51,552 nt of DNA from Pseudomonadales bacterium (lineage in GTDB: Bacteria > Pseudomonadota > Gammaproteobacteria > Pseudomonadales > Pseudohongiellaceae). Below, in pieces: positions 48,060 through 51,552 of the stretch. Location: positions 1 through 51,552 of the forward strand of contig JAJEGU010000055.1 in NCBI GenBank assembly GCA_022819645.1, read 5' to 3'. A program made the position numbers and the translations under genes. A model generated the notes under the pieces. It was given only the letters and a program-made list of their open reading frames with translations. It did not search any database and had not been told where the DNA came from. The first letter of the stretch is position 1. Each line of letters starts with the position of its first letter.

Positions 48060-48331
48060 CAGCAATTCTCATTATGGCAATGGGCGCGCTCAGATCAGTC
48101 ATCCTGCGCGCAGCGATGCTCATCCCCTGTCATTCTGCGCGCAGCGAAGCGGAGTCGCAGAATCTCTTGCAGTGGCCATCCAATGAGATCCTGCGACTGC
48201 GCGCAGGATGACTGATGTGAGCGCGTCTATTACCATACGGAGAGCCTGCATGAGATTCTGCGACTGCGCTTCGCTCCGCGCGGAATGACGAGGGAAGGGG
48301 CTCCGCGCGGAATGACGAGGAAAAGGCTCCG
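48060..48331. repeat. Cluster of MITE-like ends and family A palindromes
   Basis: CAGCAATTCTCATTATGGC plus 11 further bases at 48060-48089 are identical to the element start at 22582. An imperfect inverse arm (CTGCGCGCAGGATGACTGA and onward) ends near 48250, giving an element about 190 bp long with long, partly decayed inverted arms. Family A pieces fill its interior (48137-48210), and three more GCGCGGAATGACGAGG-like units follow to 48331. The cluster marks the right edge of the inverted ilvC segment. No gene is visible between ilvC and pssA. Confidence 0.75.
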
Positions 48332-48384
48332 CGCAGCGCCTTTCCAGACGGCGACCCAGACGGCGACCAATCGAAGCAAATTCA

Positions 48385-50378: not shown

Positions 50379-50987
50379 ATGACCAGCGCCGCATCGAGGG
50401 CGAGGCCAGGGCTCGCGCTGCTGAAGCCCGCGGTTTTCAGCGCTTCCCTGCTGCCGCTGGGCTGGCTCGTCTGGCGCATTGCCGCCAATGATCTCGGCCC
50501 CGACCCGGCCCAGGAACTCGCCATCGCCACCGGCGAATGGACCCTGCGCTTCCTGCTCATCACCCTGAGCCTGACTCCCCTGCGCCAGCTCAGCGGACGG
50601 CCGGAGTTCGTCCGGGTGCGGCGCATGGTGGGCCTGTTCACCCTGTTCTACGCCGCCATTCATTTTTTCGTCTGGATGTCCCTGTTGCTCGCTTTTCGCT
50701 GGTTCGCCATCGGCGAGGAACTTGTCGAGCGACCCTTCATCAGCATGGGATTCGCTTCCCTGCTGATTCTGATCGCCCTGGGAATCACGTCTCCCAGGGC
50801 CATGGTGCGGCGCATGGGCAAAAACTGGAAACGCCTGCACCGGCTGATCTACCCGGCAGCCATTTTCGGCGTCATCCACCTCGCCTGGATTCTGCGAACC
50901 GACCTGGGAGAAGCCGTGCTTTACGGGTCGATCCTCGCATTGCTCCTGGGTTATCGACTTTGGCGCCGCTTCACCAGGAGCGCATGA
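50379..50987 (+). CDS. msrQ: MsrP-associated heme-binding membrane subunit MsrQ
   Basis: This 202-residue protein with about six hydrophobic segments is of the ferric-reductase-like membrane family. It passes electrons from the quinone pool or flavin donors to MsrP. Key features are TGEWTLRFLLITLSLTPLRQ, RRMVGLFTLFYAAIHFFVW with a heme-ligand histidine, and WKRLHRLIYPAAIFGVIHLAW with further histidines. It follows msrP by 21 bp in the same operon. Confidence 0.94.
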   Translation: MTSAASRARPGLALLKPAVFSASLLPLGWLVWRIAANDLGPDPAQELAIATGEWTLRFLLITLSLTPLRQLSGRPEFVRVRRMVGLFTLFYAAIHFFVWMSLLLAFRWFAIGEELVERPFISMGFASLLILIALGITSPRAMVRRMGKNWKRLHRLIYPAAIFGVIHLAWILRTDLGEAVLYGSILALLLGYRLWRRFTRSA

Positions 50988-51088
50988 TTCTGGCAACCAG
51001 GAGCCTGATGGGTTGCAGGCGTTCCCGCTCCGTCGAAGCGCGGCGGAAATGTGTATCCGAATCGTTTCGCCGTCCCGGTTCCCGATGA

Positions 51089-51118
51089 TTGCGGCCGCGC
51101 GCGGTTTTCGGGTATAGT
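51089..51118 (+). promoter_or_regulatory. Possible promoter before the AACCG tract
   Basis: TTGCGG (51089-51094), an 18-bp spacer and TATAGT (51113-51118) point at the repeat-containing frame. The predicted start near 51125 gives a leader of about 58 nt to the ATG at 51183, which has GGGGGA eight bases before it. Confidence 0.5.
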
Positions 51119-51182
51119 CTCCGTCTCGCGGGCCAGTGGGTCCGGGGGAGACTGCAATCACTCCACACTGGGGGACTTGACA

Positions 51183-51287
51183 ATGCGGGCAAATTCAGCA
51201 TCATGCTTTGAACCGAACCGAACCGAACCGAACCGAACCGAACCGAACCGAACCGAACCGAACCGAACCGAACCGAACCGAACCTGA
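51183..51287 (+). CDS. Short frame through the AACCG tract (leader or OFF-state reading)
   Basis: ATG at 51183 is preceded by GGGGGA at good spacing and opens MRANSASCF, then repeats of EPNRT across the tract, and stops at TGA 51285-51287 directly after it. It has no similarity I know. It may be the OFF phase of a translational switch: one more repeat unit would carry this frame, without stops, into the secreted protein that starts at 51373. Alternatively it is not translated and the tract only changes promoter-gene spacing. Confidence 0.45.
   Translation: MRANSASCFEPNRTEPNRTEPNRTEPNRTEPNRT
51210..51284. repeat. Pentanucleotide tandem repeat (AACCG), about 15 copies
   Basis: Fourteen perfect AACCG units (51211-51280) plus AACC, preceded by G, make an uninterrupted microsatellite. 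Because 5 and 3 share no factor, each forward frame reads the same five-residue cycle (E-P-N-R-T) without stops. Such tracts change length by slippage and are a known basis of phase variation. Confidence 0.98.
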
Positions 51288-51372
51288 TCGTCCCTCCTCG
51301 CCCGGATTCCTCCTTCCCGCCTCCCGGATCGAGACCTCCGCTTGCGGGGGTTCGCGCTTCCGGTCGAATCAC

Positions 51373-51552
51373 ATGAGCGCCGCGGCCGACGTTCCACGTG
51401 CCGCCCGCCGTCTGCTCCCGGCCCTGCTGTTCCTGCCGCTGCTTGTTGGCCTTGCGACGGAAGCTTCCGCGCAGCACAGCCTGTCGCCTTCCGCGGCGGA
51501 ACTGTACGAAGGCGAGACGAGAACGTTCACCGTTACTTTCAACACCGCTTCC
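51373..51552 (+). CDS. Secreted or surface protein, N-terminal part (runs off window end)
   Basis: The 60 residues available hold a basic N-terminus, a hydrophobic core (LLPALLFLPLLVGLA) and a cleavage site near ASAQH, a standard signal peptide. The mature start LSPSAAELYEGETRTFTVTF resembles the first strands of Ig-like or Calx-beta type adhesion domains, though too little is present to be sure. ATG at 51373 has no ribosome site, whereas the upstream ATG at 51183 does. No stop separates 51283 from 51373 in this frame. Confidence 0.65.
   Translation, partial: MSAAADVPRAARRLLPALLFLPLLVGLATEASAQHSLSPSAAELYEGETRTFTVTFNTAS

Follow-up and report, generated by a model that had tools for sequence, protein, structure and literature searches.

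Repeat-driven phase variation is known mostly from vertebrate pathogens and commensals. The closest known systems are the opa genes of Neisseria, with CTCTT repeats at 9-12 loci per genome in mixed phases (PMC13183285); lav of Haemophilus influenzae, a phase-variable autotransporter gene with a (GCAA)n tract, in which one of three frames is ON (PMC9022572); and modB of Neisseria, with CCCAA or GCCAA repeats of 2-28 pentamer units (PMC4751487). Here we describe an (AACCG)15 tract that stands before the gene of a secreted protein in an uncultured Pseudomonadales bacterium. The tract lies near the end of the window, a term by which we mean the whole stretch of DNA analysed (51552 bases), which is the entire contig C41 of a draft genome of 85 contigs and 3.10 Mb; the secreted-protein gene is cut off by the contig end. 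Contig names without a prefix (C41, C10 and so on) denote contigs of this source genome (G000), and other G-numbers denote genomes of the same genus.

The kind of system is known from opa, lav and modB; new are its setting, a tract that precedes a complete signal peptide, two units within a single gene family and a cassette-like build. Whereas the opa repeats lie in the signal-sequence region of genes with an opacity domain, the tracts of the present family consist of AACCG or GCCAA units, precede a complete signal peptide with a linker of 15-68 codons, and stand before proteins with Calx-beta or LapA-like matches. The lav tract is a tetramer in an autotransporter gene, described as one gene in the available part of its report, in contrast to the multi-locus family with two unit sequences seen here. 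The GCCAA unit is shared with some modB alleles, but modB has a DNA methyltransferase downstream, where the present family has secreted proteins. Our searches of the open-access literature brought up no description of this system, which is not proof that none exists.

We propose that the tract is a translational phase-variation switch, opa-like in principle, before secreted proteins, and put the probability of this reading at about 0.84. The transcript would begin upstream, probably at the promoter-like element P1 (Table 1), and ribosomes would start at ATG 51183 and read nine codons and then the pentamer tract. The signal peptide and the secreted protein would be reached only at unit numbers of the correct class modulo 3. 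Units gained or lost by slipped-strand mispairing would shift that class, and each cell lineage would make the protein or not; with a dispersed family of such cassettes before secreted proteins, several of them with Calx-beta domains, a population could show many surface combinations. The anatomy, the family, the length variation between relatives, the three phases and the loci lacking ATG, GTG or TTG before the signal-peptide core are direct observations on the assemblies. Slippage in living populations and transcription from P1 are deduced, as are the expression of the proteins, their position at the surface and their role.

The first-pass annotation had described about 15 perfect AACCG units between an ATG with a good ribosome site and a signal-peptide frame at 51373 without one. 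Tandem Repeats Finder gave the same copy number, the GGGGGA seven bases before ATG 51183 would serve as the ribosome site, and no Shine-Dalgarno-like sequence was visible by eye before ATG 51373. The tract had the top score of 14 Tandem Repeats Finder rows in the window, the second being 103. We do not regard it as a product of chance, because it is a 75-base perfect pentamer array and because its base class occurs at only four places in the genome, in a like setting. It is open in all three forward frames, with the cyclic peptide EPNRT, and direct reading of the frames confirmed that the frame from 51183 ends at TGA 51285. As assembled, the window copy belongs to a class that is hard OFF, with this TGA at the tract end. 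The distance between the two ATG codons (51373 - 51183 = 190 = 1 mod 3) agrees with the earlier calculation that one unit more or two fewer would restore the frame. The signal-peptide frame (MSAAADVPRAARRLLPALLFLPLLVGLATEASAQ..., ATG 51373) is open from the tract through the contig end.

Table 1. Features of the tract locus and its upstream neighbour, in window positions
Feature	Position	Strand	Basis
(AACCG)15 tract, perfect	51210-51284	+	Tandem Repeats Finder: period 5, 15.0 copies, 100% match, no indels, score 150
Putative start ATG, nine codons, tract and TGA (51285-51287) directly after the tract; predicted present OFF phase	51183-51287	+	Direct reading
Shine-Dalgarno-like GGGGGA, 7 bases 5' of ATG 51183	51170-51175	+	Direct reading
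Promoter-like P1: TTGCGG, 18-base spacer, TATAGT; ~65 bases 5' of the ATG	51089-51118	+	Consensus match only
TTGACA (51177-51182) abutting the ATG, CATCAT 16 bases on; initiation region or promoter-like P2	51177-51204	+	Promoter scan, 10/12 match
Linker from tract to signal-peptide core; signal-peptide frame stop-free	51285-51411	+	Frame reading
Internal ATGA: ATG of the signal-peptide frame overlaps the TGA ending the third phase	51373-51376	+	Frame reading
Signal-peptide core and start of secreted protein, cut by contig end	51412-51552	+	Signal peptide assigned by eye
Upstream neighbour, outside the switch: membrane protein resembling ferric reductases (Ferric_reduct)	50379-50987	+	PF01794, E 5e-16

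The source genome was searched for tracts of the same base class only, with units of three G/C followed by two A/T and a length of 28 bases or more. Four were found: the window tract and (GCCAA)n tracts on C10, C13 and C65. Each is close to a contig end and is preceded by a purine run, CTTGACA, a start codon and CATCAT. The last 141 bases of C41 (51412-51552) are identical to the end of C10, and those of C13 are likewise exactly common to C65, as would be expected if assembly broke off at the point from which two gene copies are the same. The family has a fifth member, on C15, which lacks a tract and whose frame runs unbroken for 1479 codons from a like start through the signal peptide. In its upstream flank this tractless copy (L089, G000:C15:71000-78749) matches a relative's locus with 4.6 units (G018:C58), at 91.7% identity over 460 bases. 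At C15 the switch may have been lost and locked in frame, or may not yet have been gained.

Among relatives, a 60-residue query found matches (E up to 0.01) in four of 58 genomes, the source genome included (G000, G018, G022 and G030), and no match in G033. At the nucleotide level, (AACCG)4 or longer is present in five of 61 genus genomes, again counting the source genome: the same four and G033. All five carry GCCAA tracts too, and the remaining 56 had neither (AACCG)4 nor a GCCAA tract in the search and its reversed control. The five genomes hold 17 tract places, 16 with the upstream side present; every one of the 17 adjoins a leader or signal-peptide gene of this kind and is built of perfect units, of two sequences. 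In a sample of 398 genomes of the phylum, (GCCAA)6 was confined to the source genome, and the reversed control, which is equal to (AACCG)6, was found there and in G318. The latter belongs to the same class and another family.

The consistent setting bears on the possibility that the tract is a microsatellite without function or an artefact of assembly. Several contigs do end near or inside tracts, and the assemblies are drafts; the contig ends in the source genome are, however, accounted for by the 141 bases shared between C41 and C10 and between C13 and C65, and the two perfect unit sequences stand beside such a leader or signal-peptide gene at 17 of 17 places. We consider this explanation very improbable.

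The first-pass annotation had proposed a translational contingency locus, to which a fixed unit number among relatives would have been contrary. In the assemblies the unit number ranges from 4.6 to at least 27.2 over the 17 places, and it differs between loci that match each other on one side, as aligned by BLAST. The window (15.0 units) and G033:C74 (17.4 units) are 92.7% identical over 838 bases upstream; G030:C96 (6.0) and G033:C118 (at least 27.2) are 94.6% identical over 1120 bases upstream; C10 (9.0) and G030:C81 (at least 15.6) are 96.8% identical over 403 bases upstream; and G018:C58 (4.6) and G022:C24 (19.0) are 96.3% identical over 596 bases downstream. Phase could be read at 12 of the 17 places, seven in frame (G000:C13, G018:C118, G018:C58, G022:C24, G030:C96, G033:C74 and G033:C25) and five out of frame (the window, C10, C65, G018:C3 and G030:C62), with C13 and C65 phased only by homology to the C10 linker. 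The three classes number 7/2/3, and the in-frame share, seven of 12, does not differ clearly from the expected one third (binomial 0.066). Phase was not readable at G022:C66, G022:C77, G030:C81, G033:C118 and G033:C97, each of which has one side missing; the first two are maybe the two sides of one locus. As far as comparison shows, the variable unit numbers, the several phases and the loci without a start after the tract support the contingency proposal.

The leader recurs at the 16 in-genus tract loci with an upstream side. A purine run, judged by eye, precedes the start in all 16 (for example GGAGG, GGGAGG or AGAGG, the weakest being AAAAGG). TTGACA stands beside the start in 15 and TTGGCA in one (G018:C58); the start codon, ATG in 15 and GTG in one, abuts this hexamer, with one extra base in C65. 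It lies 8-10 codons before the tract, and the frame is stop-free from start to tract end at every locus. Further upstream, the P1 pattern (TT(G/C)..., N16-18, TAnnnT, mostly TAAAGT) occupies a constant place in 13 of the 16, and is also found at tractless C15, making 14 of 17 with C15 counted. It was not matched in G018:C3, G022:C77 or G030:C96, the last of which has GATAAT by eye. The whole P2 pattern (TTGACA or TTGGCA, N16 or N18, CATCAT or CATTAT) is present in 12 of the 16. Judged from these consensus matches, P1 would place the start codon and tract inside the transcript, and P2 would start the transcript at the tract.

A scan of named genomes for TTGACA, a gap and four AASCS units returned 44 stretches, 11 of them from four metagenome-assembled genomes (MAGs) of the relatives. 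In eight Clostridiales/Lachnospiraceae records (L090, L100, L104, L110, L111, L116, L126 and L127), GGAG or GGGG and TTGACA are followed after 17-18 bases by a TAnnnT-like box and (AGCCA)n. A short ATG frame runs into the (AGCCA)n, and by eye the promoter-like and start-like signals overlap, in a scan that itself required TTGACA. L108 and L117, which we take to be mod genes, have the repeat at the start of the reading frame. For Haemophilus lav, the published upstream primer Lav_F contains CTTGACA too (PMC9022572). It may be more generally the case that TTGACA accompanies repeat tracts in coding sequence.

The linker bears on whether the start before the tract is needed, and for it we compared the 15 loci with a located signal peptide (11 in the genus, four outside). 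The tract lies 15-68 codons before the signal-peptide core at all 15, and the intervening stretch is always stop-free in the signal-peptide frame. At G018:C118 and G022:C66 in the genus, and at L113 outside it, that frame has no ATG, GTG or TTG between tract and core. Unless a rarer codon serves as start, translation at these loci has to begin ahead of the tract or inside it. On this reading the three loci point to translation across the tract. C10, G030:C62 and G033:C25 have no ATG in this interval, but do have GTG or TTG. For the window itself, the need for the pre-tract start rests on the relatives, because the window keeps ATG 51373, by eye without a Shine-Dalgarno-like sequence.

Several observations weigh against a translational switch. 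The contig of G022:C66 begins inside the tract, with its own pre-tract start out of view. An in-frame ATG after the tract, a potential start, is present in the window and in eight other loci, three of them outside the genus. The linker is without codon-wise constraint: in each of 11 pairs nonsynonymous changes are more numerous than synonymous ones, with no preference for third positions, and codon-wise selection accordingly failed as proof of translation. The part of the linkers before any internal ATG comprises 454 codons, with no stop in the signal-peptide frame and eight in each other frame, for which the shuffle probability of stop absence is a weak 0.077 over eight representatives. The corresponding values are 0.016 for the six loci without an internal ATG and 0.0023 for all 15, neither set being independent; as proof, the stop-free linker is weak once restricted to the part before the internal ATG. 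In the window this part is 29 codons long and has no stop in any of the three frames. Finally, TTGACA with CATCAT resembles a promoter ending at the tract.

This last resemblance underlies the principal alternative, in which a P2 transcript would start at or just before the tract, tract length would tune transcription or mRNA stability, and translation would proceed from 51373. TTGACA at 15 of 16 loci, and CATCAT or CATTAT 16 or 18 bases on at 12, are in keeping with it, as is the retention of CATCAT although the reading frame differs between the two tract types; ATG 51373 also opens a signal-peptide n-region of ordinary appearance, which by eye is conserved better than the preceding linker. 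Yet all 16 loci keep a start codon whose frame is open into the tract, and C65, G018:C118, G033:C118 and G030:C96 have no -10-like box at P2 spacing and nevertheless keep TTGACA and the start codon. The loci with no ATG, GTG or TTG between tract and core, and the further promoter-like element P1 upstream in 13 of 16, also argue against it. The first-pass annotation had allowed that the tract might tune promoter spacing instead; a promoter at the tract is the weaker reading, retains some plausibility for the window copy with its in-frame ATG 51373, and is in our judgement unlikely overall.

The translational switch itself may have a finer structure. Read in the phase that runs one base ahead of the signal-peptide frame, 12 of 15 loci have as their first stop a TGA that overlaps a start codon of the signal-peptide frame (ATGA nine, TTGA two, GTGA one; ATGA 51373 in the window), and G018:C3 and G030:C62 are presently in this phase. 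The other out-of-frame phase stops elsewhere, in the window at the very end of the tract. A stop overlapping a start is the arrangement of translational coupling, and by analogy one OFF phase might re-initiate, so that the switch would have three states: in-frame fusion, re-initiation and hard stop. The overlap is, however, partly built in, since any TGA of that frame follows an xTG codon; the loci are related, forming about eight groups; and the overlap is missing at the same three loci that lack ATG, GTG and TTG before the core (G018:C118, G022:C66 and L113). We offer the three-state refinement tentatively, as a possibility on the less likely side.

The loci have a cassette-like build. Seven pairs were compared, and in all seven the 130 bases that precede the tract show 75-98% identity; in four of these (C13/C65, G033:C25/C97, G018:C3/G022:C77 and G018:C58/G022:C24) the outer flank falls to 23-41%, approximately what shuffling gives (mean 38% and maximum 50% in 20 shuffles of a single stretch). 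The pairs window/G033:C74 and C10/G030:C81 are low at a fixed offset, but BLAST aligns their flanks at a shifted offset; for G030:C96/G033:C118 the outer flank keeps 92-95% identity. The window and G033:C74 have a common flank upstream of the tract, whereas identity right after the tract falls to 44% and 39% and no downstream BLAST match was found between them. This corresponds to one switch position with a different gene, and in this one pair the tract looks like an exchange joint for downstream genes. The converse is seen in G018:C58 and G022:C24, which share the downstream gene and have unlike flanks.

Five further stretches with GCCAA tracts come from Nitrospirales, Nitrospira and Alphaproteobacteria records (L096, L102, L105, L113 and L129), and in four of them a downstream signal-peptide frame is reached. 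L102 and L105 are 85-86% identical to G033:C74 over about 455 bases; the usual ATG position reads ATA in both, and their switch may be broken or start elsewhere. L102:962-5472, from an Alphaproteobacteria bin, is 99.1% identical over 4511 bases to L105:2570-7080, from a Nitrospirales bin, so that at least one is probably misbinned, or the transfer was very recent. Cross-phylum transfer of the cassette is possible and only a lead. A broader proposal, that a movable three-state cassette with the tract as gene-exchange joint shuffles eukaryote-like surface proteins and has passed between phyla in the same sponges (Pseudomonadales and Nitrospirales bins), we regard as doubtful.

Ten downstream proteins of the family were compared with Pfam. 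Calx-beta was matched in six, above the gathering score in four (C15, G022:C66, G033:C25 and G022:C24); LapA in three, all below gathering; AIR9 A9 in one, above gathering; and Big_12 in one, below. Four of the ten had no Pfam match at all, and neither an Opa outer-membrane barrel nor a methyltransferase was among the matches of the ten. A search of NCBIfam with six of the proteins gave one weak, irrelevant match only, and the 60-residue window piece starting at 51373 had no match in Pfam. An adhesin-like surface function may be suggested for these proteins.

The isolate names of the four relatives have the jk18x..bins form that is used in a study of Ircinia sponge microbiomes (PMC9531527), and these relatives appear to come from sponges. 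We infer that the source genome comes from the same kind of sample, because the relatives are of the same genus and because of the 141-base contig overlaps. The Ircinia study, whose BioProject is PRJNA768976, used Megahit assemblies, gave MAGs names such as jk18x7bins.61 and described Calx-beta 'eukaryotic-like proteins' as enriched; in its main text no word beginning with 'phase' was found (PMC9531527).

In the region around the tract, Rfam gave no match across 50900-51552, up to E 1, and a terminator search of the same interval found none. The window also contains, at 48273-48334, two-and-a-bit copies of a 27-base unit (GCTCCGCGCGGAATGACGAGGGAAAAG); a similar CGCGCGGAATGAC piece lies 5' of the G033:C74 tract, and the unit may be a dispersed intergenic repeat.

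If the translational switch is real, it would suggest that bacteria living with an ancient animal group, uncultured and apparently sponge-associated, also vary their surfaces at random. The mutual tolerance of sponges and their dense symbionts would then become testable with existing metagenome reads. Calx-beta eukaryote-like proteins are usually scored as present or absent, and some of the genomes that carry them may have them switched off.
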